64,000 nt of DNA. Origin: Prillingera fragicola. Lineage: Eukaryota; Basidiomycota; Tremellomycetes; Trichosporonales; Trichosporonaceae. This document shows, piece by piece, positions 7,598-51,638 of the stretch (the first letter of the stretch is position 1; every line of letters begins with the position of its first letter). The position numbers and the translations under genes were made by a program. The stretch is from positions 1,364,001-1,428,000 of the forward strand of contig BEDY01000005.1 in assembly GCA_002335605.1 (NCBI GenBank). Reading direction: 5' to 3'. Under the pieces are notes generated by a model. That model had not been told where the DNA came from, did no database searches, and saw only the letters and a list, made by a program, of their open reading frames with translations.

Positions 7598-7848
7598 GCC
7601 GGTGGGCGTGGTACGGCTTGCTGATTGAGGACGATTGGCCGTGGTGTGGTGGATGAAGCGTGGAGTGTAGGACGGAGGTAGTTGACGTTTCAATGTGACG
7701 TGTGGCCAGCCAGGATCCAGGCGCGTGGTTTCAGCCCACTGGCCACTGAAATGTCCGGATGCTCTTGCCATCGTCCTGTACCCCAACGCTACCCTAACGC
7801 TACACTCCTCGTCTCAACGGAGCAGCTCAACATTCTTAGCGCGCGCCA

Positions 7849-9216
7849 ATGCCTGCTCTCTTTCGAGGCGCGTCGTCGCTCGTCATCCGGTGCTTTAAGA
7901 AGGTCGAACATTGCGCCGATGCTGTCACTGGCGCCGCTGGCCCCGTGTTCATCTTCATTGCATGGGTGCTCACAGTAACGGCTGGAGCTTCATTCTGTGC
8001 GTCTCCGCCCCTAACCTTACTCTTCCTGATTACCCTCCTGACACGCGCCAGTCGACGTTGTCGTCCGCAACCAAGGCTTCTGGACGCGTCTGATCCTTGC
8101 ACCGCTCTACATTCTCGTCCCTCTCAACCTATATGGCCAGTACTGGCTGGTGACCCACGCCTCGGCCGGCTTTCCTCAGATACGCAATGAAACGGAAGAG
8201 CGCTGGATGTCCCACAACCCACGCTCGCTGCTCGCACCGGAACGCTGGGGCTGGAATCGTACCTTGGGTGGCAGTATTTACATTCCCCCCGACCCGCGCA
8301 GCGAGGGCAAGCGTGTGCGCAGGTGCCGCAAGTGCGAGGGACCGAAGCCAGAGGTGAGCTAGGCTACATAAAAGTGGACTGACAAGCAGCGCACCCACCA
8401 TTGTTCTGTGTGTAAACGCTGCGTGCTGCTAATGGACCACCACTGCCCATGTAAGTCGCCGACAGTCCCCTTGTGGCACAACTGACTGGTAAAGGGATCA
8501 ATGCCTGCGTGGGGCTGTACAACCAGCGCCATTTTGTGCTGTTCATGATCTGGATAACGCTCGGATGCTGGGTCATGATGGCGCTTGGCTACTCCTACTT
8601 TATCGCCTCGCTCGACTGGACCAACGAGGCGCCGTGGAACGCTCTTTCGCCGAGGCTCATGTTCACGCTGTCCTACATCCTGGCCCTTGCCATTGGAGTG
8701 TGCGTTCCCGTCCTAGGCGGCTGGCACATTTACATGGTCGCACGCGGCGAGACCTCTATTGAGGGGCACGATAACGAATACCTCGAGAAGAAGGCAAAGG
8801 AGGACGGATTGATATACCTCAACCCCTACAACTTGGGCAGGAGGCGCAACCTCGAGCTCTTCTTCAACATCGGGCCAGGCGGATAGTACGTGACCGTGAC
8901 TGCATGATAGCTGACCACCAGTCCCGCAGTCACGTTGTTGTTCCCCCTGACAGTGCCGCCGTACACCAACGGCTGGTCGTGGCCGCGCCGCGCCATGCCC
9001 GAGCCCGAGCCCGAGCCCGGGTACACAAGCAGCGCAAGCAACGGCAAGCGCTCGCCCGACCACTCGCCTGAGCGCGCCGCTAGCGTCAACTCGCGCCCGA
9101 GCGGGGAAGCCGGATTGCGCGGGGACGGACCTGGCGGGAAATATGTCATGGGCGGCGCAGAGGACTTGACGGACGATGAGGATGGGGGCGGAGGGTGGTG
9201 GGATGGTGATACTTAG
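7849..9216 (+). CDS. DHHC-type palmitoyltransferase
   Basis: Five exons (7849-7996, 8052-8353, 8390-8450, 8495-8885, 8922-9216) give 398 residues. Two N-terminal membrane segments precede a cysteine-rich domain ([19 protein letters not shown]) and the catalytic DHHCPW, whose Trp codon is split by an intron. Two more membrane segments follow. The Cys of DHHC forms the acyl-enzyme that passes palmitate to cytosolic cysteines of target proteins. The order of domains and the VGLYNQRHF motif fit the Pfa3/Pfa4-like yeast enzymes; which one cannot be decided. The C-terminal 90 residues are acidic and Gly/Ser-rich. Probably located in the vacuole, Golgi or ER membrane. Confidence 0.9.
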
Positions 9217-31548: not shown

Positions 31549-33693
31549 GGTGTTGAGCCGACCGACGAATACACTGGCTGGGCAGAAGTGTAGATTCGGG
31601 ACTTGGTTGTCCCCGTGCGGTTGCTCTCAAAGACAAAGTCAAGGATGAAGAGAGAATACGACCTATGGATTCCAACTGGGCAGACGACTCGGCGGACGGT
31701 TCGGAGCGCGCGGCCCGGCCGACAGCGGATGATGTATCAGCCTCCACCTCCACACATTTTGGTACCGCTAAGGCCAAAAAACTTTTGATGCAGTCAAATT
31801 GGATTAGGAAATTGGTTTGCTCGATTAGCATTTGAAGTAGGTCACGCCATGCTGGCGGCGACCTTCGACAGCCGCCAGAAGTTGCTCCTTCCATTGACGA
31901 CGCAGGACATGCGCAGCATGCGCAGGCCAGCTCGACTTGCTCGATACAGTTCAATCTCGTGATCTTATCAGGTGATAACAGATATCGGTGTTACGCCCAC
32001 ACAACGCTCATCACGATCATCACTTCCTGTTGCCATGCGCCACCTGTGTGTGTTGGCCATCGCACCTCCAGCCTCCGGTATACCGGGCTGCTGGGCATGT
32101 TCCGAAGGGCGCAAGTCCCTAAACGTCTGGCTTAACCTGACTAAAGCGACATGTGCTGCGCATGCGATGTTGATTATCAGTAGCAGGTAGGCCTTGAAAG
32201 ACGAACAAGCACCTGGGGACTCTGTCCTCAGCACCTTCCCCGCACTGTCCGAGACACTCGTCACCTTGTGTAGCATGCTCGTGTCCATTCAACCACCTGT
32301 TTGGTAGACTGAAATATCGGTCTGGAGAGCACAGGCCAGGGTAATCTAAACTTTGCATGTAGGGCAAGTGATCCTGCTCCGCGGTAAGAAACCTAGTTCC
32401 GGTGCTCAGCAACTTTTGAGACCAAGCTCGCATGCTTGGCATAGTGTTTGATTTGCGGGACCAGTGGCAGAATCGGCGGCTGGAACACAAAAGAGAGTTG
32501 CTCTTTGGAAGCAGAGAGCCGGGCGGCTAGGCTGCCAGAACTCGGCTTTGAGAATTTGGAACAGGCTTTTGGACGACTGACATTACTGTCCGCCCTGGAG
32601 ATCGAAAGCCACAAAGGGATGGGAGTGGGTTTGAGAGCTGTAGCCTCTAGGTTGCCGAGCACGACAGGTGACCGACGCCTCCCTCCCTACCGTCTAGACT
32701 TGGCACGCTCGGCTTCCGAGCAGTACCAAGGCCGCGCCCTCGCTTTGTGTAACACTGTGTGCATCCTTTATCTGCCCGCAGTGTCCCCGTTTTTGTGAGA
32801 GTCGAGAGTGTCTGTTTTGATGGAAGCTTTAGAGCTGTTGTTCTAGCCAGTTGGCAGCAACTGCTGGCCGACGTTTCATGGCTGTAGCAGGAACCTTGAA
32901 GCTTTCAAGCAAAATGTGACCCATAAGCTTGGTTCTGTCGTCTTGTGCCGTCGAAGTGAAGAATTGACTGGGTGAGAGCAGAGGGGTAGAGGTCGGAGAC
33001 CCTGATACCCAGACAAGGTGTCCCTGGTACAAGCATGTCTGCGAGGCATCAGAGCAGAGCCTATAGGTAACGGCGGGGCCTAAAAAAGGTGTTTCCTGTC
33101 CCTGACGTTGTACCTGGGCCCAGAACAGCCAAAGGGATCCGTGCCCATAGACCATATGTCGACTTGGGTGGGTCGGTTGCAGAGCACTCCCTCACTCGAC
33201 AAGACACTTTGACCAGCATTCTTCCTCGAACTTTCTCATCCTCGTTCTCTTCTAAATCACGGTATTGAGACGCACAACAACCGAAGCACATACCCACACG
33301 AGCAGCCGATCGCCGAAAGGACCCTTCCACCTGCGGCTGCATTGTCCCTCGTCGATTTTCCACCCTCCCCGCTTTGCCGACAACATTCGCCAAGCTCCTC
33401 GCTATCTATCCCGTTCACAACCAACTGGGCATTATATTACGCTTCAGTTGATGCGCTTCTAGCCGTCACGAGCACTCAGTGGCCCGCTCTGCCTTCTCCC
33501 GATTGCGGATTCCACGTTTGCAGATATTGTGAGTCGCGTCGTCTATCCTTTCTGGACCGCCGTGACCGTGCGCCGCATTGTAGTTACCACCGCGTTACTG
33601 TCAAACAAATCGGCACGTCTCAGGATCTAGATTGATGTCACCGAGATGTTCATGCTGACAGTAACCTGCAGGCCTGAGTTGGGATAAGAACAA
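31549..33693. other. Divergent gene-poor stretch
   Basis: 2.1 kb between two outward-facing transporter genes. No supported gene. The 450 bases before the oligopeptide transporter start are C/T-rich with many CAACC/CTCG blocks, and look like its promoter and leader. Confidence 0.45.
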
Positions 33694-36600
33694 ATGTCGC
33701 AAGCCGAGGACGCCTCGGCGCGCGCGCCAAGCCGTGCTTCCTCGACCGGTGGCACAGAGTTTCATACTCCGAGTGGTTCAATCTTTGATGGCCACGATAC
33801 CGAAGAGCTTTCAGAAACTCACGCGCAAGCAGCAGGAAAACAGGGTGGCTTGGAACCGCCAGAAGACATTGCTCGTCACTCATCAATGCTGCCGCCCGAG
33901 CTGTCACCAGCACATTCTTCCCTCGCCAGCTTCTCCTCGCCGTCTCCTTCACTCCTTGCGTTGCCCGCAGAGGGCTCTGCTTCAGCAGAACCAGAGGGAC
34001 CCATGCTCAACGTCGTGCCTGCAACTCCATTGCCGCCCGTGAGGGACGTTGTCCCCTCTCTGGATGACAATGACCTCTCCACAGAGTCGACCAACCCAAC
34101 TGTTGGCGAGCCAACCAGTAGCCACATGGCCACCGAATCCTCTTCCTCGACTCTTGCACCCGGCACGAGCGAGGACTACCATCAAGCCGGAATTCTTCGC
34201 TGGGCCAATCCACCAGATACTGGGCGGGCGGAACGCCTAACGACGTCACTGGGTGACCGTTCTCGCTCCTTTCACCCTCTACCTTCCCCAGCGGATTCCA
34301 GTCAGCGCGACGAGGAGGAAGAGGATTACAGTGGCATGTTTGCGTTCAACCGTCCCCCGACTCGCAAACCACAACCTTCTGGTTCTGCTCCATCGTTCAA
34401 CGGGTCTGACTCTGAGCACCACCACCCCGGGGAAGAAGACTATCAGCCAACTGGTCTCGGGGTGCCAGAGCCACATCGTTATGACAGGTCCAACCCACCA
34501 CCGGTGCGTCTCCATTTTCTACCTCCACCTAGTTTGGGAGCTAACATATCAGTTCTCTGGCACCAACAATCTCAACAACGGCATCTTCGCCTTCGGCATG
34601 CGGCGGCGAGGCGAAACGGCCCACACCGACAATAGCGAACGCGAGATGCCGGAAATTCAACTAGACTCGAGCCATGAAAGGCACAGGGGTTGGAGCGGTG
34701 GAATGGCCCCATCGACTTCATACTCGAGCGACACTGGTCTGGTCCCCTGCACGCCTGAAAGCAGCATCTCTGGTGTGGACGGGCCAATGGCCCGGCCACG
34801 AACCGACCGCAGCTACGCCATGACGGAGCTTACCGGCGACATGACAGTTCCCGACGGCAAGACTACCTGGGGAGACGGTCAGGGTGGAGCGTTCAAGGAT
34901 GCAAACGACGGCGGGGACTCTTCCTACGACCCCGACTGGCTAGAGGAGGACAGCCCATACGCAGAAGTTCGAGCCTCGGTGTCGAACATGGATGACCCAG
35001 ATATGCCAGCTCTGACCCTCCGCGCGTACGTGATGGGTCTCCTTCTTTCGCTGTTTACAGTGGCCGTCAACACGTACTTTGTCTTCCGCAACCCCTCGCC
35101 CAGGATTCCTGCGACCGTTGTTCAGCTGATAGCCTACCCAATTGGCAAATTTCTCGCCTGGGCGTTGCCCGTCCGAGTTTGGACAGTGCCAAAATGGATG
35201 GGTGGCTGGAGCTTCAGTCTCAACCCATGCCCGTTCAACGTCAAAGAGCACACCGTGGTCGTCGTGATGGCGACCGCGGCGATCAATCCCGGATACGCCA
35301 TGTACTCGATCGTCAGCTGCGAGCTGTGGTACAAGACCACGTACGGGACAGGATTTAACATTCTCTACCTGCTTTCATCGCAGTTGACAGGCTTCTGCAT
35401 GGCAGGCGTGTTGCGTCGCTTTGTCATTTGGCCTGCTTCCATGATCTGGCCCGGTGTGCTGGTCAGCACGACGTTCCTCAACGTTCTGCACGCCGATGCC
35501 GACGCAGGTACTCGAGGACCAACCCGTTTCAAGTTCTTTGTCGTTGTCGCTTGCGGCGCTTTTGCGTACTACTGGCTGCCGGGATTCCTGTTCACGGCGC
35601 TGAGCTACTTTTCCTACGCCTGTTGGATCGCGCCAAGGAACGTCACCGTCAACCAGCTATTTGGCGTATCAACTGGGCTGGGAATGGGATTCCTCACCTT
35701 TGACTGGGCTCAGATCTCATGGCTAGGCTCTCCCCTTACCGCGCCGTGGTGGGCAGAGGTCAACGTGGCTATTGGCTTTGTCGTCTTCTATTGGATCATC
35801 ACACCGGCTATCCACTACACGAACGTAAGTTTCCTGTGTTGCATTGAGCTGACAGTACAGGTCTGGTGGACACAGTACCTTCCGATGATGTCCAGTTCCG
35901 GTGGCGACCGTTTTGGAAGCGAGTACAACATTACCAACATCATTACCCCCGACTTTCACCTCAACACGACAGCCTATGCCGAGTACTCGCCTCTCTACCT
36001 GACAGCCGCGTTTAGTACCACGTACATGGTCGCGTTTGGATTGACGACCTCGATCATCGTCTACACCTTGCTCAACCATGGCGGCAGGATCTGGAAGGGT
36101 CTGCGCAAGATCAAGGTTGAGGAGGACGACCTTCACATGAAGCTCATGTACAAGTACCCCGAGGTTCCAGACTATTGGTTCCTTAGCGGCCTTGTCGTCT
36201 GCTTTGTGCTGGGAATCGTCACTGTTGAGGTCTTTGGTACCGGGCTGCCAGTCTGGGGTCTGGTCATTGCTCTGCTTGTCGCGTTCACCTTTGTGCTACC
36301 TTCGGCAATCATCTTTGCCATGACCAACTTGGAGCCGTCCTTCAACCTGATTGCGGAGCTCATCCCTGGATACGCCTTCCAGGGACAGCCCATTCCCGGC
36401 ATGGTGTTCAAGGTATTCGCAGTCCAGTCTATCAGCGAGTGCATGGTCTACACGCGCGACATGAAGCTCGGCCACTACATGAAGATTCCGCCTCGGTCAA
36501 TGTTCATTGTGCAAATGAGTGCCGCCGGAATCTCAAGTCTGGTGCAGATTGCTGTCAAGAATTGGATGTTTGCGACCATCCCCGACATTTGTACAGACAA

Positions 36601-37275
36601 CCAACCCGACCTCCTCCTGTGCCTTGGTCCCAAGACCAACTTTACGGCGACCCTGGTGTGGGGTCTCATTGGACCAGCGCGCATGTTCAACAAGGGTGCC
36701 ATCTACAACCCACAGCTGTGGATGCTGCTCGTCGGGGCAGTCTTGCCTGTCATTGTTTGGCTGTGGGTCAAAAAGTTTCCAAAGTCAATCTTGCGCAACT
36801 GCGTTATCCCGGTCATTTTCAGCGCGGCCAACTTTACGCCACCCGCTACTGGCATTCACTTTACGAGTTTCTTGGCCGTAGGATTCGTCTTCCAGTTCTG
36901 GATTCGACGGAGGGCGTTTGCGTGGTGGTCAAAGGTGAGCCTTGGTTGACTGTTGGGAGATAAAGGCTGACAACATAGTACAACTACACGCTGAGTGCTG
37001 CACTGGACGTCGGTACGGCGTTGGCGGTCCTGGCCATTTTTGTGTGCTTGGGCATCCCTCGGGTCTCACTCAACTGGTGGGGTAACACAGTGTACAAGAA
37101 GAGTGAGTCGGCAATGGGCGGCCTAACAGTGCGGTGCTAACACTGTCTCAGCTTTGGATTACAACGGCGCAGTATCGCGGACCGTGCCGCCCGGAGGGTT
37201 CGGTCCAGACACCTGTGAGTAGTGACTTCATGATCATCGGAGGACCACCACTGATGTTCCACAGGGAAGGTATAG
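33694..37275 (+). CDS. OPT-family oligopeptide transporter
   Basis: Six exons (33694-34503, 34553-35824, 35861-36934, 36979-37102, 37152-37214, 37265-37275) give 1117 residues. About 440 N-terminal residues are Ser/Pro/acidic and probably cytosolic. Then come about 14-16 membrane segments. Family landmarks include LNPCPFNVKEHTVVVVMA (the consensus NPG is NPC here), NPGYAMYSIVSCELWYKTTYG, ASMIWPG, PAIHYTN|VWWTQYLP and LNWWGN near the end. OPT proteins import tetra- and pentapeptides, glutathione or metal-peptide complexes with protons across the plasma membrane. Intron 35825-35860 is 36 bases, divisible by three and stop-free, so it would read through if retained; removing it restores the family motif. 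Confidence 0.92.
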
Positions 37276-37513
37276 TGGCGTTTGTGTATCGGCTACCCAC
37301 ACAACGGATATGAGGAGGAAAGGAGGAGGGGTGCGAGGGGAGTGTGTCTTGTTGGAGGTCTTCGAGGAGCATTGGAGGAGGAGTATCGCATCTGAGGACA
37401 ACTTGTAAATAATAGGGCTCTCGTGCAAGTACCAACCACTGTGTATCATGTCAATCATTTATTACGAGCACGCAGTATGGGAAAGAGAGATGGGACTCGA
37501 AAGGGGCAAGAAC

Positions 37514-37594
37514 GGGGGTTTGTCCAACACAGACAGAGAACCCCAACGACAGACCGGGGGTGTGTCCAACACAGACAGAGAACCCCAACGACAG
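37514..37594. repeat. Direct repeat, two 39-base copies, period 42
   Basis: Copies at 37514-37552 and 37556-37594 differ at one base and are separated by ACC. They include TGTCCAACACAGACAGAG. No coding role seen. Confidence 0.85.
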
Positions 37595-40500
37595 CTGCGC
37601 AAGGCAAGGCCAAGGAACCTCTAGCAGCCATCAGGAGCGCATCCATCGGAACGGGCCGCTGGGTCAGGTCGACTCCAGGACTAGTCGGTCCTGACGGGTT
37701 CCAGTGGCGACGGGAAAGTTAAGGTTTTGTTTAAGTTTTATGCCATTACTCCGTTGGCTTGTCACTGGCCGGTGAGCTGATGACCTTCGTCTACGTGGTC
37801 CTCTTATCGCCCCATGACCCATGGGTGGCTTTGAAGCTTGCTCGTTTCCTGCCAATATATGCTAGCGCGAGGGTTCAGTTGCGATGAGCTATGCGACGCT
37901 TTCACGGGATCTGTCGGCGCAGGCGATCATTGCACATGCACGCCTTTGGCGGGAACGTGGAGCAACTCCGCTCAGTGCATCACGAATGAGGGGAAATAGA
38001 GTAAAGAAGTGCTTGATCGTGTGAAGGAGGGGTCAAGCGTCAACTGCCGCCACCTTTCTCGAGTACCTCCACTGCCACTTTGAACCTCCCACTGCCACAG
38101 CTCTCGTCATGCGTCGGCCCGTGGAGCTCTCACCACCACTTGGTCCCACCATTCAGCCTTCGCAGTCGGTACGTGGAGCACATGCTGAAGCATACCACAC
38201 ACACACTCCACGGCACGGGCCACGGGCTTTTGCGACCGTACGTTCACAGGCGGTTTATGGTTCCAACGGCCGGCTCGCCCTGCGCCAATGTGTGCCCATG
38301 CTGAGCATGTGCCGCGTGATGGCCAACACTTGTATGCAGCATACCTTGGCCTCGTCATACGTTGGCCCCAAAAGCCTACTTACCCACACCTGGCAGAACT
38401 ATTGCCAGGTGTGACCGTCGTAATGTCGCGCCGGCAACGACCGAGAACGACCCTGGTTATGCTAGCTCGAAAGTGACAACAGCTCGACGTGTCCTGTTGG
38501 AATAGCCGACCGTAGAAACGATTAGCGATCAGACCATCCAATGATTCGAGACCAAGACCAGGACCCAGAACATGCAGAAAGATTCCAACGTGGGTTACAG
38601 GATCACCCAAGACTTTTCCAGGAGCACCACTTTCGGCTCCACTTTTTTTAATGGCCTTGTGGATCAGCCTTTGTCAGTTGGTCAATAGCGGGGGGGCCTG
38701 TCCCGGTGTTCCGGAGCTCGGAACGGCATCACTAGCTTAGAGCCAAGCTTTGGTGAGGGTCAGAGAACGGCGGCAAGTGCCCGCTAGCCTTCCCATGCCA
38801 TCCGCCAGATGGGTTTACTGGGTTCCTGGTGGCCGGCGCCATGTCATGACGGCGGACGCTAGCTCGACAATCTCCGCCTCAATTCTCCCGTTCATCACGG
38901 ACCTGGCTCCAAGTCTTGAGTTTTCGTGTATGGCCATGTGTCGCCTCGTCTGTGTGGTTGCATTTCGATAGATCATTGGTGTTCTGGTCAGCAGGAGTGC
39001 CGTTGTCAGGAACAACAGTCGCCGCTCCCCTGTGCTCGGTTTCTTTGAACGGTCGATCCTTATCGCAGGCCGTGGCTTATGCATCAGAACGTCAGCAACC
39101 TAGATTAGTGACAGAGGTACAGAGGCGTCTTTAGATCGCCCCTTACTTGCCGGCCAGGAGTGCAGGAGTGGTCAGGTCCCAATAAGCGTGAAGATCGGCC
39201 GGCACAAATACGACTCCTGTTCCCAACTCTTAACTCTAATCACAATTTCGACCACAAGATGAGCCAACTTACCTGATGATTAGCACTTGGTAGATTGATG
39301 CCGAGAGATCTATTCCATGCCAGGATCGGATGCAAGACGAGTGAGGCTCATACGAATCTCCCGAAATTGATCAAGGAGGTACAAGTGACAAGTTGACATG
39401 GAGCAAAAAGAGCGTCGTGCGTGACGTTCTGGACTGGCCGCTTTGCACGTACATCTCCGCACACACGATGCTCGCTCGGCATACCTTGAGAAGAGGCGTA
39501 CTGATGATGCGGAGGCGGCAAAGGCTACGCAGTTGCACTCAGCCATAGGAACGCTGCGAAGAAACGCCTCAACCTTAAAATCAGTGGGCCAGGCTTGGCT
39601 CGGTCGTCTTTTCTGCTCTGACTTCTCAAATCCTCTCTTGCATTGCAGACAGACAATACAGATGTACGACCACAATGCAGTCGGACGAGTCTCGAAAACC
39701 CAAGGGTGACCCAATTTCTTGATCCTTTGACCCGTGGTGGGCATCTGTGCCTGTCCAAAGCCTAATTGACAAATGTCGCCCAGGCACCATCATTGGTACC
39801 TGTCTTTTCGACCTGATGGCGGCGTAGTCGCGAACAAGATGCGCCGCAGATCGGGAAAGTAAGGGGGTGTGGTGGTATGCCTAACTGCATCATGAGCACT
39901 GAGATGCTATTTGTGAGATGGCAGCCGTATAGTATCGTAGGGGAAGCGACGTTCACAGGTAGTGTTCCGGAAAAGCCGTTTCACCATAATCAGATAGCAA
40001 TGGCCTCTGAGGTTTAGTCACCACAGTCTCTGCCGGCCGGCACCTGGCCACAAAGCTAGCCGGCCGCCTTTGGCCAGCGGCCAGACGCGGCTGCGCCACT
40101 AGGATGTTCTGAGATATTTCTGGGAACCTATTGCTGTTTCTGGGGCCAGTGTGAAACGAGCGGCGAGGAACACCACATGTCACCGATGCTCTGGAGCATC
40201 ACGAGCAGTCCCAGGATGCCTGGATTAGCCGGCGGCCTGGACGGCCAACGAGACAGCGTCCTCGGGCATTGAACGGGGTGGCCGCGGTGGTCTGCAGGCT
40301 ATTGCTTCGGGATCTGCCAATGTCTTGAATGTAGTGGGTGGGTGTCGAGTGCGAGAAACCTCTTTGTCAATGCCGGGCCACGGGTTCCTTGCGCGTTCAG
40401 ACTCAGGGGACGACGCGCGATGCACGCTTAAACCTTGTTCATGAGAAGCAGATGAATTCCTGGCAATCGTACTTCCTTTAGACATCCTCCCACCTGGCCA

Positions 40501-41753
40501 CCTGCCGACCTGACCACGTCTGTCGCAAGCAGCAGCGGCGCAGAGGCAACAGAGCGCACAAGGGGTGCACGTCCGACTGCAGGAGTTGTAAATGCCACAA
40601 TGTCTCAGTTGCGATCCTGAGATCCTTGGGACCTTTGCGCTCGCCCTCCCCCGATTGCACCGGTATCTGGGCCCTGAAAACGTCGTCCACCTGGTCGTCA
40701 TTTGCCAACTACCGGCGACTGGACGTGTACGAGTACAAAAGTGGTGTGCGCACATGCGACCCAGAGATCCCAGAGAGCGCAGAGAGAGACAGGAGCGGGG
40801 GACGTAAGGATACGAGGACCGCACTAGAGGAGGGAAATTACGCCGCGTGCCGCGCACCTATTCATGCATTGTTCCGTCGGCGTTCTTGCAAAGGACCCGC
40901 AATGCTCGGCGCCGGGACGAAGAGCAAGAGGGAGAGGGCAAAACCTTTCGAGACCGCAATCCAGGCCGGCAGCCGGAGCACCATTGTGGCGTGCGCTAGC
41001 AACTAGTGTACAACATTGCCCCGCAGGCCCGCAGCTCGTCTGGCCAACCGTGTCCGCAACCCCAAGACATTTTGTAAGGGGTTGAATTAGGTGCATAAGG
41101 GCCTATGGACGCCGACAAGAACGGGTACAGCAACAGAGAAAACTGACCTGACGTCAAGGTCACTAGTGTCGATCTAGCATTGAACACTTTTGTGCCGCGG
41201 CTGAGGGGTGTGCGACGCATGCTCCCTCGTGCCCACTCGCCTTGCCTCGCCGCCCAGCAACAGCTTGTCTCTGTCGCTAGTCAGTTCCCAACCAGTGCGC
41301 TGGCGCAGACCGCAGAAAAGCGCCCACCCCGTGTCCAAAGGATACGCGCATACGCCACTCCTTGCTCGTCTGCTCTTTCGTCCACCTCTCAGAAAACAAA
41401 CGCACGCTATCGACAACGGGCTCACGGCACTCGGCCATCGTTCATATCCTCTCCTGCCAAGGCACGTGGCGTAAGACGCACTCCGACAGTCCCAACGGCA
41501 AACGTGCTGCCCCCTCTCTCTCCTCGCTCGTTGCTCCTCGCTCTTCTTTGGGCTTGCTCTGCTCTCACCCCAGACGCGCCAGCAGACGGAGTGGGCTCAT
41601 ACAACGTTCCTCAGCCCGGCAAGCCCAAGAACCTAGGCACGCCGCAGTGTACCGCGCCGAGAATCTCTTGATCCACATTCCCTTTCATGCAGCACTCGTG
41701 GCTCGTAGACCGAGACACGCTAAGAACAGGGCCAGTCATCGACCAGCTGCAGA

Positions 41754-41760
41754 TATAAAA
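41754..41760 (+). promoter_or_regulatory. TATA box of the secreted peptide gene
   Basis: TATAAAA lies 177 bases before the start codon and is followed by a CAC/CTC-rich leader. Most other genes here lack an obvious TATA box, so this suggests a strongly or conditionally expressed gene. Position and motif are seen; use is inferred. Confidence 0.6.
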
Positions 41761-41936
41761 GACCCAACACCCCACCCTCTCTTAGAGATCGACACATTCC
41801 TTGCACACCTCTGCTGTCCACTACACCTCTCTATCACAACATTTTTAACTGCACGTGCACGACGGCCCCCCTTTCGTCGTTCGACCCTTAGATAACTACT
41901 CGTGCGCCACCCTCGCCACCAATTCTCTCAACAACA

Positions 41937-42653
41937 ATGAAGTCTACATTCGCTCTCGTCCTCGTGGCCCTCGTCTCGTCGGTCGCCGCCCTCCCCATCG
42001 CTGAGGCGGAGGCCTGGGGTGGTGGTGCGTGCAACGGCAAGCCCTGCTGGAAGAAGGACGCCCTCCCGGAAGCCGCCCCCGTTGCTGAGGCGGAGGCACA
42101 GGGCTGGGGCGGTGGTGCGTGCGGCGGCAAGCCTTGCTGGAAGAAGGACGCTGTCCCCGAGCCTGCTCCTGTTGCTGAGGCGGAGGCACAGGGCTGGGGC
42201 GGTGGTGCGTGCGGCGGCAAGCCTTGCTGGAAGAAGGACGCCGTCCCCGAGCCTGCCCCCGTCGCCGAGGCCTGGGGCGGTGGTGCTTGCGGCGACAAGC
42301 CTTGCTGGAAGAAGGACGCCGTCGCCGAGCCTGCCCCCGTCGCCGAGGCCTGGGGCGGTGGTGCTTGCGGCGACAAGCCTTGCTGGAAGAAGGACGCCAT
42401 TCCCGAACCTGCTCCTGTCGCTGAGGCGGAGGCACAGGGCTGGGGAGGTGGTGCGTGCGGCGGCAAGCCCTGCTGGAAGAAGGATGCCATTCCGGAGCCT
42501 GCCCCGGTCGCTGAGGCCTGGGGTGGTGGTGCGTGCGGCGACAAGCCCTGCTGGAAGAAGGATGCCATCCCCGAGCCCGCCCCCGTTGCCGAGGCCTGGG
42601 GTGGTGGTGCGTGCGGTGACAAGCCCTGTTGGAAGAAGGACGTTGCCGCTTAA
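41937..42653 (+). CDS. Alpha-factor-like secreted repeat-peptide precursor
   Basis: One intronless frame of 238 residues. Residues 1-18 are a signal peptide (MKSTFALVLVALVSSVAA). Eight cores WGGGAC[N/G][G/D]KPCW start at residues 27, 57, 87, 113, 139, 169, 195 and 221, each followed by Lys-Lys. Every spacer reads as X-Ala/X-Pro dipeptides in register up to the core (for example DA-IP-EP-AP-VA-EA), the pattern removed by Ste13-type dipeptidyl aminopeptidase after Kex2 cleavage. In four units trimming would reach the core Trp exactly; in three it should stop at Gln-Gly, leaving a 14-mer; copy 1 follows LP-IA-EA-EA after the signal. Two cysteines per core may form a disulfide. The PCW end resembles Sordariomycete alpha-pheromones. 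Alternatives: a Rep1-like structural peptide or a Kex2-processed RiPP, but no UstY-type gene is nearby. Confidence 0.9.
   Translation: MKSTFALVLVALVSSVAALPIAEAEAWGGGACNGKPCWKKDALPEAAPVAEAEAQGWGGGACGGKPCWKKDAVPEPAPVAEAEAQGWGGGACGGKPCWKKDAVPEPAPVAEAWGGGACGDKPCWKKDAVAEPAPVAEAWGGGACGDKPCWKKDAIPEPAPVAEAEAQGWGGGACGGKPCWKKDAIPEPAPVAEAWGGGACGDKPCWKKDAIPEPAPVAEAWGGGACGDKPCWKKDVAA
42015..42632 (+). repeat. Eight tandem peptide-coding repeats
   Basis: Cores of 36 bases lie at 42015, 42105, 42195, 42273, 42351, 42441, 42519 and 42597, so unit lengths alternate between 90 and 78 bases. Long units carry the extra spacer residues EAQG and always a GGK core; short units always carry GDK. The first core is NGK. 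DNA identity between units is high, which also keeps other frames on both strands free of stops. Confidence 0.95.
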
Positions 42654-43111: not shown

Positions 43112-45284
43112 TTACTGTGCGCCGCTGTGTGCAAACATGTCAAACGTCTCGCCCATGTCAAACGGCCAGAACGACAGCAGGTCGGTCGGCAGCGTGTACT
43201 CGGCGTCCGTGGACACGGCCACGGGCGGATGAGCCTTGAGAAGGTCGCTTACAAGGCCAGCAGCTGCCAAGTCTGCGTCGTCACCGTTCTCGTCGGTGCT
43301 GAGCAGCTGCGGTTGTTGAATGTTTGGAGTAGACCACGTAGCGCTTCCCGTCGACGGTGAGGCATGTACTGGTACCTCTGGGCTTGTCGTATGCAGCTGG
43401 ACCTCGGCAGTGACAAGGGGAGGCTGATTGCGTGCGGGCCGTGCGGCCGATGACGATGTCCAAGCCGAAGCTGGCAGAGCATTGTGGTAGACCTGGGCGC
43501 GTCTTGATCGGTCAAGGGCAGCGGTCGTCATGTATTGATCGATGCGAGAGACATGGTCGCGCAGCTTCTCTGCGATACCGGGTACAAAGCTCAATGTAGA
43601 CTCTAAGCTGGAGAGGAGCTCCACCATGGCCAAGAGCACGTTGCGCACTTGCAGGTACGACCAGTGGGATAAAGGAGACTGAATCACGCTTCCAAGCAGG
43701 TGTCCGACACCTGCCAAGTGATGGAGCTGTCATAATCAGCGCAGTCTCGGTATGCACACTCACGATTGGCGAGCTAATAGCCTGGATGTAGGCAGTTGGC
43801 ACCAATGACAGGGCATCGAGAAGTTCACCAGCAATTGCGCACCGCTTCTCCACTCCAGCATCTTCTAGACTTGTCATGACCATTTTGACTGTCTGCATGG
43901 TGACGATAATGTCGGCAGCTTGGAACCCGTAGCGGTCGTCGCCAACGTTTCCACTCATTGCCTGTGCGCCCTTGAACTCGGCTGGCAACTCGGCATACAA
44001 GTCGTTCACAAGTTGCAGAACCTCGGCAGGCGTAGGTCCCGAACGGCTGTTGAACATGGTCGTGACACGGTCCTCGTGATCTGTCCTTCGATGACGAAGC
44101 TGCTCCAGGGCGTGCTCGAGAATGCGATACAGGTCGGTGGTAAAGCTCCAGCCAATGAGCCAGGATACACGCCCGGGGTCTCGGCGAACAATACCATGTT
44201 CAGTAATCTCGCTGTCGTCCTCGACATTGGCCGGGTAGAGAACCGTGCATTGTGATTCACGATGACGAACAACCCCGCCCCAAGTAGTTGAAGAGTAAAC
44301 GTCGATGGTGTAGGCACCCCAAAACTATTCAATCAGTTGGGTCATTTGGCCATAACTCACCAGCCGGCGTCGCTCCTGAATCTCCGTCTCTGGCAAGTCG
44401 GGAGGCCAGCGTGTCTCGTTCTGAAATCCGTCCATGGCACACAGCTTGTAGTATTCGTGGAGGTGGGTCGTGAGCTGCCGCACTTGACCGTATTGGATGC
44501 AGAGCATGGCGAGCAGGACACGGGCACGCTTATAGTCAAAGTGAGCCGCGTCAGGCGACAGGTCGGATGGGAAGCATCGGAGGCAGGCATCGTAAAACGT
44601 CTCAGACGAAGCTGTGGACGGAGGAAGGGCGTCCCGGCTCGCTTCACTTCCTCCCGCACCATCGCGTACTCGCGCCGATGTAATTGCACACATGGCCATG
44701 GTGGTGGCACAGAATGCTCGGTCGCTCATGTACACACCAGCACGGATCTTGGACATGAAAGACGGCCAGTGAAAGTAAGGAAGTCTGTAGACGTCAGCCA
44801 GAGTCAAGGCAGGCCGCCGAGGCGTACATCGGGTAGATGATTCGGTAGTAGGACTCGGCCAGAGTCTCGAGCACTTCTGGTGTAGTCACAGGCTCGTAGA
44901 CCCAATTATCCACATGGTTGCCGGTCGAGGACTCGCCCTTGATACTAGACGCTCTGGGCGCGCCAGCTCGGGGCACGGGCTGGTTTGGTTAGACGTGTCC
45001 TCACTGCCACAACCATTACTCACCCCACGACGGCGGATTGGCCGCAGGTAGGTGCACTCTGACCCAAAGGCGGCACATGGTCCACAGATGTCGGGATCAG
45101 CACTTGTAGAGCACTTTACGCCACTTCGATGGCACCGGTCGCATGCTCGCTACCGGGAATTAGTTGTGGGGCACGTTGAGCTTGTAGTGGGACATGAACT
45201 ACATACTGTGATACGCCTCCGTTTGAGGGGTTCTCCTCCTCCCAAGCTAGCGGTTGGTGACTCTGAGCCCCCCAATGCAGACAT
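43112..45284 (-). CDS. Zn2Cys6 fungal transcription factor
   Basis: Six exons (45284-45207, 45149-45024, 44979-44828, 44784-44361, 44324-43764, 43726-43112) give 651 residues. Exons 1 and 2 join to form RRRITRACDRCHRSGVKCS, followed by CGPC and ECTYLRP: the full binuclear cluster C-x2-C-x6-C...C-x2-C-x6-C with an Arg-rich flank, at about residues 30-62. The middle homology region (Fungal_trans type) starts near YPILPYFHWPSF and includes the RRRL|FWGAYTIDVYSS block. The C-terminal 180 residues are Ser/Pro/acidic, a likely activation region. It is a sequence-specific nuclear regulator. Target unknown; it converges with the peptide gene and diverges from the crotonase gene, so either is a possible target by position only. 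Confidence 0.88.
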
Positions 45285-45595
45285 TGCTAGTGACTAGGTA
45301 AGCTGGGGAGCTGGGAATGTGTCTGATGAGTGGATGCGGTGGCCGGTGAGCTGCTGAGAGTGGATCCATGACTGAACGGTGGCCGAGCGGCATCCAGTGG
45401 ACGTTGTTGCCGAGTGACGGAAGCATTTATTCTCCCAGTATACCGGCCCACCGGCTATCAGCGGCCGCGGACACGCCGGGAATGGTGTCCATACTGACGG
45501 TCAAGCCCGCCGAGCAACATATATCTATCCACCGTCTGTCATCTCGCTTCCACCATCTGTCCCTTCAGACCAACTCCCACAGTCTATCTTCAAAC
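45285..45595. promoter_or_regulatory. Divergent promoter, transcription factor / crotonase
   Basis: 311 bases between two outward start codons. A TATTT-like AT-rich patch lies near 45427. A C/T-rich, ATC-rich leader precedes the crotonase ATG. Confidence 0.5.
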
Positions 45596-46590
45596 ATGTC
45601 GCTCATGAAGCTTTCCCGCCCCACCCCGACTGTTTGGGTCATTGAGCTCAACGCGCCGCCTGACAACCGTCTTCACCCAAACCTCCTCACCGAGCTGGGC
45701 GCAAACCTCGACAAGATCGAGGCCGAGTGGCGTGCGGCTGGCGGCGCTGCCAACATGGACCCCAAGAAGCGTGGAGAGCACGGTGGTGCCGGTGCCGTTG
45801 TTCTCACTGCCGCTACCCCCAAGTTCTTCTCAAACGGACTCCACCCTTCCTCGCTTGGCGACATTGGAGGCTTCTTTGAGAGTGCGTCTAGTGCCAAGAG
45901 TCTTACAATCAAGTCTGACTAACGTTGCAGACGTCTATGATCCTCTTGCTTACCGTCTCATGACTTTCCCTCTCGTCACCATCGCTGCCCTTAACGGCCA
46001 TGGTAGGTCATGCCGTCGAACAGAGTCTCAGAACTGACCGGTCCAGCATTTGCCGGAGGTTTCGTCCTCTCGCTCTGCTGCGACTACCGCATCATGACTG
46101 GCGGCCGGGGCATGCTCTCGATGAACGAGGTAGGTGTGCAAGGAATTGTGGCAGCGCGTACTGACAGTACAGGTGTTCATGGGTCTCCCCCTGCCTAATG
46201 CGTTCAACGTTATTCTGCGCCAGCGCATGGACTACCAGACTCTCCGTGAGACCCTCATGGGCAAGCGGTGGACCCAGAAGGAGGCCCTTGCCAAGGGTAT
46301 CATTGACGAGATTGTCGATGACACTGGAGCCAACGAGGGCGCCCTCCTTAAGCGTGCCATTGCCCTGGGTATGGAGAAGGGTCCCATCATTGGCGCCGGC
46401 GCCTGGGGAGCGCTCAAGGTGAGGCGAGATGACCAGCAGCCGTATGACACTGGAGCTAACGTATCAGGACGGTGTTTGGCACGAGGCTATTGATGCTTCG
46501 CGCGCTCGTCGCCAGATCATGCTTCCCGCCGCCGAGGCCAAGGCTTTCAAGGACCGCCTTGCTCGCCAGAGTCTCTCGGCCAAGCTCTAA
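45596..46590 (+). CDS. Peroxisomal enoyl-CoA hydratase/isomerase
   Basis: Five exons (45596-45881, 45931-46002, 46047-46129, 46173-46418, 46468-46590) give 269 residues, the crotonase size. Visible landmarks: the oxyanion-hole segments (VVLTAATPKFFSNGLHP and AALNGHAFAGGFVLSLCCDYRIM), GLPLPNAFNVILRQRM, and MGKRWTQKEALAKGIIDEIV. The C-terminal Ala-Lys-Leu fits a type 1 peroxisomal targeting signal, pointing to beta-oxidation in peroxisomes, similar to yeast Eci1/Dci1. Whether it is a hydratase or a delta3,delta2-isomerase cannot be settled, because the two acidic residues of hydratases are not clearly in place. Phases agree across all four introns. Confidence 0.88.
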
Positions 46591-46676
46591 TGTACTTTTT
46601 TTTGTGACAAGAAGTTGTGCAGTATGAATACGAAATGAGCTATATGATATCAGATGCATCGCTGTGTCGCGGAAGC

Positions 46677-47247
46677 TCAGAGACCGAGGTAGTAAGCACG
46701 CTGAGTAATCATCCAAACGACACCGCTCGCTTATGGGGTCAGCGTCGCTAGAAGACGGGGACTCACAGCCAACAAGCAGGGGGCCAATGCTGGCGCGGTT
46801 AGGCTTGACGGTGCCAAAGATGAGCCACTCGGTCACAAAGTGGAAGGTTGCGACACCAAAGGCACAAATGCCAAGGTCGTACAGTCTCAAATGTCAGCTT
46901 GGCGCAAACCCTTGCTCACCCCTTGTTCGAGATGTCGTAGGCGGCCAGAGCTCGCACAACAGCAGCCATGGCAGTCCACGCGCCAAAGAGGCGGCCAGCA
47001 AGCGGGTTCACTACGTTTGTTAGAACTAAGATATGCCAAGGAACTTACTCAGTTCAGGCTTGCCGCCGTACACCTCCTTGCTCTGCTTGAGCGTAATGTA
47101 GTTTTGAACCACATTGTAAACCGACGCGACGCTGGTAATCATGAGCCAGTAAGGCAGGACACCTCCGCCGGCAGGAATCTGGGGCAGGTCTGGACGTCAG
47201 CATTGCTTTATTGCCTTCCTTTCGTGTGGACACATACAGGCAGACAT
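46677..47247 (-). CDS. ERG28: Erg28 ergosterol-synthesis scaffold protein
   Basis: Five exons (47247-47238, 47189-47049, 47010-46920, 46885-46767, 46729-46677) give 137 residues. Landmarks: LPYWLMITSVASVYNVVQNY, NPLAGRLFGAWTAMAAVVR, AAYDISNKGLYDL and FHFVTEWLIFGTVK. Four hydrophobic segments fit the ER membrane protein that holds the C-4 demethylation enzymes (Erg25, Erg26, Erg27) together in ergosterol synthesis. The first exon is only 10 bases (MSA plus one base); the start was chosen because the next exon lacks an in-frame ATG before the conserved region. The 3' end lies 87 bases from the crotonase stop. Firm. Confidence 0.9.
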
Positions 47248-47789
47248 TATGCAGTGGTGAGTTTGATAGTACAGTTGTCGAACAAGTGCACGCAGACACA
47301 CATGGTGTCGATCCAAAGCAGTCAGGCCGGAATAAGGAACGCCATTAGCGGAACCAAAAGCCGCCATCGCGTGTTTCATTAGGGCATCTAAAGAATGTCA
47401 ACAAGCACCTGAACACCCTGGTGGCCTAAAACCACACACATTGGCTATGACTTGTGATAGGTGACTTGGCAGTGGTAAATCTGGTCAACCGTAAGAGCCA
47501 GATAGTGCAGGAAGGTTGCTGCAGTGAAGCCTCGTTTCGTCAGATCAGTGTGCATTCTGGGGTGGAACGGGAGTATTCGCCACCCAGCCACGCGAAAAGG
47601 GGGCTGGTGACCTGTGTGATTTGTTTGTCGACGCTCCACCCTGTCACATCACACCAACCACAACCTGTACACTCGCCTTGTATCCCTCTACATATCCTTG
47701 CTTGCCACTCCCATAAGAGCGCCGGGCGCTCCACACCACTCTTCCCACCCCCCTTCAACGCCAGATCAAGTGCTGCGGCAGCTACGACA
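47248..47789. promoter_or_regulatory. Divergent promoter ERG28 / alpha-actinin
   Basis: 542 bases between outward start codons. The 160 bases before the alpha-actinin start are C-rich with repeated CCACAC/CTC blocks. No gene seen. Confidence 0.5.
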
Positions 47790-50466
47790 ATGCCTGTCTC
47801 AACACTGAGCACACCAACGTCCACACATTTCGGCTTTGCAGGCTTTCCCCCGCCGTCGCCATCGAGGGGCACTCCCAATGCTCTTGAACGTACTCGTTCG
47901 CTTACTCATCATGCTTCCCGCGAGTTCAAGACTGGTCACTCTCGTGGCCAGTCGTTCAGCACCAACATGAATGGCGTTCCGATGAGCCCTGCTGCACTGC
48001 CCCAGGGGTCCGAGTTCGCCTGGACAGAGATTCAAAGCCGGTACGTTCCTCTTTGGTCGATTTGAACTTTTCCCCTGCTATCATGGAGTAAGAACTAACA
48101 ACGTATGCGGAAACAGAACGTTCTGCAAATGGTATGTTGCACTCCCCTCTCCCATCACTGCCCTTGCTCACAACAAAAGGTTGAACACTAAACTTGAGAG
48201 CCGAGGGCTCGAGCCGATGACCTCCCTTGGCAAAGACTTTTCGGATGGCGTCAAGTTGATCCAGGTGAGTGTGAGAGGGGGTTGTGTGTGCTTGTGCTGA
48301 CAGTGCAGCTACTGGTGCGTTGCGTGCTCGTATCATGTGAACGAGTCTCACCGATCGCAGGAGATCATGTCTGAATCGAGCCTCGGACGCTACACTCTCA
48401 AGCCCAAGATGCGTGTTCAGAAGGCCGAGGTATGTCCAACTCTCACGATCGTTGCTGACGACAGAATGCGTCCAAGGCGCTCCAATTCATTCGCGACCGG
48501 GGAGTCAAACTCACCAACATTGGTGCGCATAGGCATTGGGGCTACCCTGACGTGTCCAGGTCCGGAAGATATCGTCGACGGCAACGTCAAGCTCATTCTT
48601 GGCATGGTGAGTGATGACGCTGGGCTTTATTGACCACCAGATCTGGACGATCATTCTGCGCTTTACCATCTCGGGCATTACGTGAGTTTTAACGCAGAGC
48701 TGGATCTGACCGACAGCGAGGAAGGTCTTTCGGCCAAGGACGGTCTCTTGCTATGGTGTCAGCGCAAGACGACGCCATATTCTGAGGTCAACGTGCAGAA
48801 CTTCAAACAGAGCTTTTCGGACGGTCTCGCTTTGTAAGTGGCACGTTTTTGACGCTGCTGACCCACAGCTGCGCACTCATTCACCGCCATCGCCCCGAGC
48901 TCCTTGATTGGGACAGCCTCGACAAGACGGACCGTCGTGGCTGCACTGCCCTTGCCTTTAAGGTGGCTGAGGAGAATCTTGGCATTCCCGTAAGCATACG
49001 TCCCTCTGACAACGCTAATGTCTCAGCGCCTGCTCGAAGTCTCGGACATATGCGACGTCGAGGTTCCTGATGAGCGCTCGGTGATGACTTACATTGCCGA
49101 GTTCTTCCACAAGTTTTCCTCTGAGGGTAAGTGAATATCGCATTCCTGTGCTGAGCTCGCAGACAAGGCCGAGACTGGAGCTCGTCGTGTGGAAAAGTTT
49201 GCCGAGGTTATGCAGAGCGTCTGCACCTCGAGGAACGACTTTGAGAGGCGCATGGCTGCTCTCCTCCAGGCACTCCAGGAGACCCGGGCAGCTTGGGCAT
49301 CTGCCGAGCGGCCAACTTCGTACCCAAGTGCGATCAACCACTTTGCTCTGTTCAACGAGTACAAGAAGACAACCAAGAGGACGTGGGTCCGTGAGCGCCA
49401 GGAGCTGGCTCAGTTGTATGGCAACATTCAGACCAAGCTCCGCACCTACTCGTTGCGTTCTTGGGAGCCTCGCGAGGGTCTACGCTTGCGGGATCTCGAG
49501 GCCGCTTGGACAGAACAGATGAGGGCAGAGGTGGCGAGGAGTCGTGCGATCAATGCCCGTATTCGAGAGTGAGTCCATTATGATGCACCACAGCTAGCTG
49601 ACACAAATAGGATCAAGGAAGACCTTCGCAAGGAATTTGCTCGACTCGCGCAGCAGTTTATCGAGGGCGTGCAGAAGATTGAGCAGGTCATTGGCTCATT
49701 GAGTGGATCTCTCCAGGATCAAAAACAAGCGCTACTCAAGCTGTCGGACGGGCTCCCAACAATGCGTCTTGCTCTGACCCGCGACATTGCTGCTGCCAAC
49801 CAGGCTTGTCTGGAGGCAAAGGTCGATGAGAACGACTACACCGTCTTCACATACGATGACCTGGAGTTTGAGCTCGAGATTGCCGAGGAGGGTATGCGCA
49901 AGAAGCTTGCCTTTGTCGAGAACCAGATGGTCTCTTCTGCCCACACCAACATTACACCCGCAAAGCTAGAGGAGTTTGAGTCGACGTTCAAGCACTTTGA
50001 CAAGGACGGCACAAACGTGAGTTAGACAGTACAAGCGAGTCAGGCTAACGGCAGGTTCTCACGGTGTACGAGATGCACTCGGCACTGGCGAGCTTGGGCA
50101 TCGTCTACCCGGACGAGGAAGTGGAGGCGATCTACTATCAGCTGGAGTCGCAGTTTGGCGCGCTCACGTACGAGGCATGGCTGGCATTGTTGGTGGAGAT
50201 TACCAAGGACGACGCATCGTCGGCAGATCAGCTGCGTGAGGCCTTCCGTGACGTTTGCGGCGACAAGGGTTACGTGACAGAGCAGGACCTCAAGTTTGCA
50301 AACCTCGCGCCGGAGACGGTACGGTTCCTTACGACTGCCATGCCAAGTCTCGCGTCTGGTGAGGGAGACAAGGTCGGATTTGATTGTAAGTGCCGAGGCT
50401 TGGTCGCCGCTGATGGCAGATCACGTATTCCTGGAGCAGTCATTTGCGCGCGGAGGGACGGTTTAG
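47790..50466 (+). CDS. AIN1: Alpha-actinin (two CH domains, spectrin-type rod, EF hands)
   Basis: Fifteen exons: 47790-48040, 48117-48131, 48180-48264, 48309-48314, 48361-48429, 48465-48522, 48560-48606, 48641-48681, 48717-48833, 48869-48989, 49027-49126, 49163-49568, 49611-50016, 50055-50385, 50420-50466. The product is 699 residues. An 80-residue Ser/Pro leader precedes tandem calponin-homology domains ([60 protein letters not shown]). A helical spectrin-like rod covers about residues 310-560. An EF-hand pair follows, with loop [16 protein letters not shown]. It crosslinks actin filaments in the cytokinetic ring. The rod is short, as in fungal forms. Exons of 15 and 6 bases fall inside the first CH domain. 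Confidence 0.92.
48309..48314 (+). other. AIN1: 6-base microexon of alpha-actinin
   Basis: CTACTG (Leu-Leu) lies between CAGTGCAG and GTGCGT, flanked by introns of 44 and 46 bases. It completes the CH-domain core LIQLLEIM; skipping it keeps the frame but removes two buried leucines. A 15-base exon at 48117-48131 (TFCK plus split Arg/Trp codons) is close upstream. Confidence 0.8.
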
Positions 50467-50901
50467 GGGGATCGACGTTGTATATTGGAGCTGCAGACAT
50501 GACACATTGCTTCGCATATGAGTGGGATGGAAGTCAGGGTGGTGCCAGTGGTGGCGGCGGCGGCGACGGCCGGGGGAGTACGGAGGGGGGTACAAGTCAT
50601 GGCTCACGGTGTGGGCGGCAATGCACCCAGGGCAGCATAGGATCGCTGGACGAATCCAGTCGTTATCAAAATCAGTCGCGCGAGCAAGCCATAGAGGAAC
50701 CAAAGTGCCACATTGGTGTGGGGTGGGTGTCGTCACGGGAGTATTCCACCTCTGAGTGTCAGGGGACAATGACGGCCGCTGCAGCGCCACGCCAGCACAG
50801 AGCGCAGCTTGCGACCTTTGTTCCATCCCATCCATCACCACTTGCACTCTCCCTCTCCTTATCTCCTACCCCGACCCATCTAACCTCTACGCAAAACAGC
50901 C
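50467..50901. other. Promoter region of cofilin
   Basis: 435 bases. A GGTGGC/GGCGGC-rich patch lies at 50535-50590, and a C/T-rich leader of about 90 bases precedes the cofilin ATG. Confidence 0.5.
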
Positions 50902-51638
50902 ATGGTGCGTTGACCAGTTTGCCCGCCAGATTCGCCCCAACAGCGCTAATGTCCTTCTAGTCTTCCGGTGTCCAGCCCGTGCGTGTTTACGTCTACATCC
51001 AGCCATCGTCCCAATGCTAACGTCTGCTCTCGCATCTGCCTCGCCTATTTGGATCGTGCTGTTATGTTCTTTTGCTCTCTCAATGTTGTGCCTGAACCGC
51101 GATTCCTACAACTCTACTGCCGTCACCATTCACCGACGTAAACACACGGTTCCCACCTACAGGTCCAGGAGTGCCTTGAGAAGTACCAGGAGCTCAAGAC
51201 TGGCAAGAAGCTCGTCTACGTTCTCTACGGCATCTCGGACGACAAGAAGTCGATCATTGTCCTCAAGACTTCCGAGTCGCGCGACTTTGAGGAGTTTGTT
51301 GCCGACCTCCCCGAGCAGGAGTGCAGGTGGGGTGTGTACGACTTCCAGTTTGAGCTGCCCAACGGCGAGGGCACTCGCAACAAGCTCATCTTTGTTCAGT
51401 GGTAAGTTGACACTTGGATTAGAAACGTCTGCTGACATTCCCAGGTCGCCCGACGATGCCAACGTCCGCAACAAGATGATTTACGCCTCGTCCAAGGACG
51501 CGCTCCACCGCCGTCTCGAGGGCATCCACGTCGACCTCCAGTGCACCGACTACTCTGAGATCACAAAGGAGGCCAGTGAGTGCTTGATTCTCTTCTATGC
51601 TAACGACTCTAGTGCTCGAGAAGGCCACCCGCCGGTAA
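50902..51638 (+). CDS. COF1: Cofilin (ADF family)
   Basis: Five exons (50902-50904, 50961-50978, 51163-51401, 51445-51575, 51613-51638) give 138 residues. As in NSA2, the first exon holds only the ATG; the second, 18 bases, gives SSGVQP, so the N-terminus reads [19 protein letters not shown], with the Ser cluster that is regulated by phosphorylation in ADF proteins. Further landmarks: [36 protein letters not shown] and [15 protein letters not shown]. Cofilin severs and depolymerises actin filaments. Intron 2 (184 bases) is long for the window. It lies 435 bases downstream of alpha-actinin on the same strand. Firm. Confidence 0.92.

Follow-up and report, generated by a model that had tools for sequence, protein, structure and literature searches.

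An alpha-factor-style repeat precursor gene beside an apparent OPT1 orthologue in Prillingera fragicola

Kex2-processed repeat precursors (KEPs) are recognised by near-identical repeats with Kex2 sites (KR, RR or KK) between them and by an ER signal peptide. Among the described systems closest to the one reported here is the KEP peptide QSWGGCGGRGTPCW of Trichosporon (Cutaneotrichosporon) oleaginosus, which Le Marquer and co-workers, surveying secreted proteins, noted in 2019 to be alpha-pheromone-like (PMC6339444); in that paper, such basidiomycete KEPs are reported without receptor or function. According to the same source, the STE13 ladder, a run of X-Ala/X-Pro dipeptides, is in Ascomycota generally reserved for pheromones of the alpha type and marks candidate hormones (PMC6339444). 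KEPs are scarce in Tremellomycetes, at 1.00 per strain, and one KEP type is common to Yarrowia and Cutaneotrichosporon (Umemura 2020, PMC7329392). In mushrooms (Agaricomycetes), KEP peptides have been detected in vivo, some of them likely STE13-trimmed (Vogt 2022, PMC9769878). The Ustilago repellent Rep1 likewise derives from a Kex2-cut repeat precursor in a basidiomycete, but its peptides are 37 aa long, attached to hyphae and devoid of the STE13 signature (PMC6339444), unlike those described below.

A second point of comparison, from within the Tremellomycetes, is the quorum-sensing peptide Qsp1 of Cryptococcus. Qsp1 (NFGAPGGAYPW; PMC5959073) is matured by Pqp1 (PMC7537855, PMC6687208) and acts after an import that requires Opt1 (PMC7537855). 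Its gene, QSP1/CQS1, is CNAG_03012 (PMC8561399, PMC6687208), which has one intergenic region in common with CNAG_03013, that is, OPT1 (PMC2848560).

The window analysed here is a stretch of 64,000 nucleotides of Prillingera fragicola (C5:1364001-1428000) within a genome of 20.25 Mb in 17 contigs. On its plus strand, at positions 41937-42653, lies an open reading frame of 238 aa that needs no intron and encodes an alpha-factor-style KEP, of which relatives are known. The predicted protein begins with a signal-peptide-like N-terminus, MKSTFALVLVALVSSVAA (41937-41990, plus strand), judged by eye and by hydropathy (best 10-residue value 2.97), with a predicted cut before LP (VAA^LP). There follow, on the same strand, eight cores: core 1 is WGGGACNGKPCW (42015-42050), cores 2, 3 and 6 are QGWGGGACGGKPCW (42099-42140, 42189-42230 and 42435-42476), and cores 4, 5, 7 and 8 are WGGGACGDKPCW (42273-42308, 42351-42386, 42519-42554 and 42597-42632). 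Every core fits the pattern W-x(3)-A-C-x(2)-K-P-C-W and has KK directly after it; the KK continues as KKDA in seven of the eight cases and, after the last core, as KKDVAA, where the protein ends with no hydrophobic tail. The predicted mature forms, of 12 and 14 residues, are four copies of WGGGACGDKPCW, three of QGWGGGACGGKPCW and one of WGGGACNGKPCW. A preliminary description of this DNA had pointed out the signal-peptide-like start, the eight two-cysteine cores and the KK after each, all of which we confirm. Eight cores with eight KK sites, and an ER signal peptide recognised by sequence and hydropathy, place the protein among the KEPs. The preliminary description had also held that such a signal would be new or convergent; since one was published for T. 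oleaginosus in 2019 (PMC6339444), the kind of precursor was already known and the gene in the window is a further member. The two share the W...C...PCW core, the KEX2 site with STE13 signature and the order Trichosporonales (PMC6339444). They differ in that the window core, WGGGACGGKPCW, has 4 residues between its cysteines versus 6 in the T. oleaginosus peptide, the comparison being with the published peptide, and in that the window precursor combines D, G and N variants and 12- and 14-mer classes in one protein.

Between the signal cut or a KK site and the next core, the spacers divide into dipeptides whose second residue is Ala or Pro in 49 of 49 cases and whose first residue is one of these in only 7 of 49, so that the X-Ala/X-Pro phasing first proposed for this precursor is borne out in P. 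fragicola. A full ladder arose in 0.2-1.5% of residue shuffles within a single spacer; being repeats, the units are not independent of one another, and the figure holds for single spacers. The ladder of the 14-residue class ends at QG, as had been implied. Three units combine an EA-QG extension with a CGG core; the other five, four with CGD and one with CNG, are without the extension. Across 42015-42632 the QG extension thus goes with the CGG core in all three instances, and all four CGD cores are without it. The array thus contains two unit types with linked features, and from these a pair of distinct mature peptides is expected.

Nucleotide differences among the repeats are mostly silent, with pN/pS of 0.12 across the eight core-plus-KK units and 0.09 over the first 12 codons of seven spacers, which argues that the array is read as protein. 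The 20.25 Mb genome yielded no second copy of the precursor, the two other matches being antisense within the same array. We conclude that the precursor is real, coding, conserved and alpha-factor-style.

When the precursor was searched against 5.8 billion proteins at E <= 1, two matches were returned, one in Cutaneotrichosporon spelunceum (P0001, CspeluHIS016_0903200) and one in C. cavernicola (P0002, CcaverHIS002_0704720); in this and in the profile search below, only the roughly 8000 candidates with the most shared words were scored. Relatives of the precursor, whose repeat the preliminary description had proposed to seek in Trichosporonales, thus exist in these two species. Both proteins share the layout of the window precursor and the string PCWKKDA[LI]PE; they differ from it in the residues between the cysteines (7 in P0001, 6 in P0002, 4 in the window precursor) and in an interrupted spacer ladder, which is broken by EVVHIVAK in all three internal spacers of P0001 and by EVEAR in one of the two of P0002. 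The unbroken ladder thus holds for P. fragicola but not for C. spelunceum and C. cavernicola. KKDA follows all nine cores of P0001, P0002 and a metagenome relative, P0124. Ahead of the core-side ladder, P0001 and P0124 carry VAK-DAE, which is absent from P. fragicola and may represent an alternative processing point. By eye, the annotated C-terminal ends of P0001 and P0002 resemble frame-shifted repeat units, and the gene models are therefore probably wrong there. The UniRef name of P0001 is that of a CBM1-domain protein; a CBM1 origin was rejected, since Pfam found no family in P0001 or P0002 at E up to 1.

A profile built from four rows, the published T. oleaginosus peptide among them (A3), gave ten matches at E <= 10, including P0001, P0002 and P0124. 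The best named matches outside the group were ascomycete alpha-pheromone precursors of the CCG-4 type from Neurospora and its kin (P0123, P0125 and P0126, E from 2e-15 to 3e-12). P0127 followed at E 6e-5, and P0128, P0129 and P0130, pheromone-like precursors by eye, were not significant (E 0.1, 0.87 and 2.9). Because the proteins are repetitive, we used shuffle tests of what carries the profile score, covering four of eight matches (P0123, P0126, P0127 and P0130; P0125, P0128 and P0129 were left out). With a second profile (A2), none of 100 core shuffles and none of 100 spacer shuffles equalled the native score for P0123, P0126 or P0127, and the likeness to CCG-4 therefore rests on the order of both core and spacer. 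For P0130, 20 of 100 core shuffles equalled the native score under A2, and this match was set aside as largely compositional. The CCG-4-type precursors (P0123, P0125, P0126) resemble the window precursor in being repeat precursors with DALPEAEP-like spacers and W...C...CW before basic residues; they differ in their basic sites, which are KR, KKR and others instead of KK. Features of alpha-pheromones seen in the window precursor are the STE13 ladder from KK to core, a Trp near the N-terminal end of the core, two cysteines and a PCW end, whereas the cysteine spacing departs from that of Sordariomycete-type alpha-pheromones. CCG-4-type alpha-pheromones are read by a Ste2-type receptor. The likeness to them could reflect either common descent or convergence. 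The Pfam yeast alpha-factor models gave no match to the precursor at E up to 0.01, a weak test given that they describe yeast alpha-factors. A dikaritin- or ustiloxin-type RiPP was rejected, the precursor being without any Tyr; a genome search for UstYa (DUF3328) gave no matches, with a control that was likewise silent.

Genes for enzymes of the processing type are present in the genome: a Kex2-like gene, whose S8 domain and P-domain fall in neighbouring frames and which has a membrane-like segment at the C-terminus; a single DPPIV_N match with such a segment at the N-terminus, as in a DPPIV/Ste13-like peptidase; and four loci that match S10 carboxypeptidases and are candidates for Kex1. Together with the matches to ascomycete alpha-pheromone precursors, these genes support the earlier proposal of an alpha-factor-style precursor in a basidiomycete. 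Secretion and processing of the precursor appear highly probable, and Kex2 and Kex1, along with an enzyme of the Ste13 type, are likely to mature it. Kex2 cuts less well at KK than at KR, which would suit an intact, uncut repeat-rich wall or surface protein; we consider such a protein most improbable, in view of the KKDA after nine of nine cores in the relatives, the phased dipeptides, the KKDVAA end with no hydrophobic tail and the Kex2-like gene in the genome.

The preliminary description had suggested mating as one role for the peptides. The genome holds one STE3 gene, seen as three exon matches, and a search of the surrounding 20 kb for CaaX-like termini returned three distinct small-ORF ends, CALL, CLIL and CVVA. 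The CVVA end belongs to a 39-aa ORF, MDAFTAVFSNIVSFAKGNTEAPRNAENDRPDGYTGCVVA (MDAFTA...GCVVA; C5:651647-651766, minus strand), which we singled out of the three for its resemblance to Cryptococcus pheromones, and which lies about 5 kb from STE3 (both within C5:645.6-651.8 kb). The Pfam model Mfa1 matched it only at E 0.029, which did not reach the cut-off. This ORF is likely the standard lipopeptide pheromone of P. fragicola. The repeat precursor itself was rejected as a CaaX pheromone, its C-terminus not being CaaX and its N-terminus being signal-peptide-like. In Trichosporonales, among 29 isolates of 24 species, the MAT loci are described as fused, each allele carrying just one pheromone precursor gene, near STE3 (PMC6730849). 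The Ste2 search that had been called for gave no match in the genome, and its positive control was silent too. The repeat precursor is unlikely to serve in mating, given STE3 and a CaaX pheromone-like ORF; the Ste2 result, weak because of its silent control, points the same way. An alpha-factor-type mating pheromone, as first proposed, would fit the architecture, the W...PCW core, the STE13 ladder and the ascomycete alpha-pheromone precursors as best named outside matches, but set against the single precursor gene per MAT allele, the STE3-CaaX pair and the Ste2 result, it seems to us very improbable.

The nearest recognisable gene upstream of the precursor encodes an OPT oligopeptide transporter (33694-37280, plus strand, ends approximate and set by eye; PF03169, 8.2e-160), whose longest open frame spans 34253-36949, with introns inferred on both sides. 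In the gap of about 4.6 kb between transporter and precursor (37281-41936) a codon-bias scan, which short exons can escape, found no coding segment. Two small minus-strand ORFs with hydrophobic starts lie in this gap, at 37455-37646 and 40862-40984 (hydropathy 2.84 and 2.56). Just downstream of the precursor, 43112-44885 (minus strand) holds gene-like frames that have no Pfam match above the cut-off and, by eye, may encode a fungal transcription factor. Farther downstream, 45593-51607 contains a weak enoyl-CoA hydratase match and Erg28 (minus strand), together with a frame for a Ca-insensitive EF-hand (alpha-actinin-like) and a cofilin/ADF-like frame.

Several results point to this transporter as an apparent orthologue of Cryptococcus OPT1. 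Among the matches listed (120 of 1016), the closest were from Vanrija, Cutaneotrichosporon and other Tremellomycetes, and P0015 was the only one from C. neoformans. P0015 has M484, P358 and W932, three residues that have been named in OPT1/CNAG_03013 (PMC8092252); in eight control OPTs those positions hold none of the three, and the chance of all three arising from composition is near 5e-5. Among about 11 OPT genes in the P. fragicola genome, the window OPT scored 892 bits against P0015 and the next 409 in summed pieces (11 genes). In a FastTree phylogeny of 26 OPT rows, for which the frames of the P. fragicola genes were assembled from tblastn pieces and 10 of the 11 own genes were taken (C12:61k, at 106 aa, was left out), the window OPT alone of the own genes fell inside the Tremellomycete group with P0015, and the other nine formed a separate clade (support 1.000). 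Within the group, the window protein branched with Vanrija and Cutaneotrichosporon (0.994) but outside the pair that they form (0.983); the next lineage was Cryptotrichosporon (0.990). This placement makes the source of the window a basidiomycete and most likely an early branch of the Trichosporonales.

The precursor gene thus stands beside an apparent OPT1 orthologue, where a gene for an imported quorum peptide would be looked for, and the locus is like that of Qsp1 and Opt1 in Cryptococcus in placing a small secreted peptide gene next to an OPT1-type transporter gene in a tremellomycete. The peptides themselves are different: Qsp1 is a cysteine-free 11-mer matured by Pqp1, whereas the window cores have two cysteines and come from a KK repeat. 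QSP1 is single-copy, unlike this repeat. The arrangement differs as well, the precursor lying 3' of the window OPT and QSP1 probably 5' of OPT1, as far as tag order and coordinates indicate. In shuffle tests of Qsp1 against six cores, summed, local p was 0.24 and 0.32 and global p 0.018, or 0.28 when the PW end of Qsp1 was kept; the C. cavernicola core alone gave a global p of 0.006 (one of six cores, uncorrected). Scores against the cores were 171, 164 and 148 for alpha-pheromone units, 133 for Qsp1 and 113 for scrambled Qsp1. Clear homology of the cores to Qsp1 was therefore rejected, the similarity not standing clear of composition. Searches for a second, QSP1-like gene were also unproductive: GAPGGxYPW, when as many as 2 mismatches were allowed, gave 2 matches versus 2 for the reversed-pattern control, and by eye both frames were unlike a small secreted protein. 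Between an ABC transporter and the OPT no small secreted ORF was convincing by eye, the best (32035-32190) having a hydropathy of 2.1 versus 2.97 for the precursor. No counterpart of CNAG_03014 (dolichyldiphosphatase) was found in the window, where none of the seven PAP2 matches of the genome falls, and the wider region is therefore not syntenic with C. neoformans. A search of the window for a counterpart of the tyrosinase CNAG_03009 gave no matches, and its control was silent.

Locus tags bear on the linkage in the relatives. The C. spelunceum precursor carries tag 0903200 and the OPT orthologue of that species tag 0903110 (longest contig, 861,526 bases for both). All four HIS tags end in 0, from which we infer a tag step of 10 and a distance of about nine genes; this linkage is a separate observation and may only reflect inherited gene order. 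In C. cavernicola the precursor (tag 0704720, HIS002) and the OPT (tag 0704220, strain HIS471) are possibly 50 genes apart. From about 11 OPT genes, the chance of some OPT lying within about 10 kb is estimated at roughly 1%. The chance of adjoining one named gene is about 2 divided by the gene number, which we take to be some 7,000-8,000; the neighbour was noticed post hoc, and several others would have been equally interesting. We found no published report linking such a precursor to OPT1 in titles and the starts of abstracts, nor in the pertinent passages of PMC6339444 and PMC6730849.

Taken with the neighbouring transporter, the alpha-factor-like build suggests that the gene likely encodes a secreted non-mating signal that is maybe taken back up. 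The precursor would be secreted by way of its signal-peptide-like start; Kex2, Kex1 and a dipeptidyl peptidase of the Ste13 type would likely each cut it, releasing 12- and 14-residue two-cysteine peptides in which a disulfide would close; and these are predicted to serve as a non-mating self-signal, which the neighbouring Opt1-type transporter may bring back into the cell. For this reading we count the anatomy, the mostly silent change, KKDA in the relatives, the processing genes, the likeness to CCG-4, the OPT1 neighbour and the linkage in C. spelunceum. Against it we count the weak likeness to Qsp1, the maturation of Qsp1 by Pqp1, the opposite side of OPT1, the lack of synteny and the C. 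cavernicola tags, as well as the roughly 1% chance of OPT proximity, the size of the peptides and the lack of a phenotype in Coprinopsis KEP knockouts. A two-cysteine peptide of 12-14 residues would be a large substrate for an OPT. Self-signalling by the peptides seems to us somewhat favoured. The import step, a mere possibility, is suggested by where the gene lies and by the precedent of Qsp1 and Opt1, and the whole combination, a Kex2/Kex1/Ste13-matured non-mating self-signal perhaps re-imported through its Opt1-type neighbour, is put forward tentatively, as a possibility that at best falls short of probable.

Self-signalling could also work through a cell-surface receptor such as a GPCR, as Le Marquer and co-workers speculated in 2019, the Opt1 neighbour then being coincidental. 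The same precursor, with its alpha-pheromone-like core and spacers, would serve equally here, but Ste2 gave no match (control silent), the one STE3 gene has its own pheromone-like ORF nearby, and in C. spelunceum, too, precursor and OPT orthologue are linked; we regard a surface receptor as rather unlikely. Alternatively, the peptide might be directed against other organisms or serve metal or redox chemistry, as an antimicrobial, effector or cysteine chelator, with no self-signalling. Coprinopsis knockouts of six KEPs gave no phenotype in axenic culture, and their authors favour biotic interaction (PMC9769878); the pair of cysteines and the pair of tryptophans in each core would also suit such uses. 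The STE13 ladder argues in the opposite direction, since in Ascomycota it generally belongs to alpha-type pheromones and is taken to mark hormone candidates (PMC6339444); we judge an outward-acting peptide unlikely.

Returning to the non-mating self-signal with possible re-uptake, the preliminary description had named density sensing as the other role besides mating; the Opt1-type neighbour, which it had not mentioned, makes density sensing the favoured possibility of the two. A more far-reaching and rather doubtful proposal is that in Trichosporonales a multi-copy precursor of alpha-factor style replaced QSP1 beside OPT1, its soluble, Kex2/Ste13-matured and alpha-pheromone-like peptide being read by Opt1 import and not by Ste2, so that an old signal-plus-importer locus of Tremellomycetes would have undergone turnover of its peptide gene. 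The new lead is that the precursor lies beside an apparent orthologue of the transporter needed for quorum-peptide import, which gives it a concrete candidate partner. If the proposed reading is true, alpha-factor processing and bacterial-like import would be joined in one locus, and signal genes would be worth seeking beside OPT1 across the Tremellomycetes.
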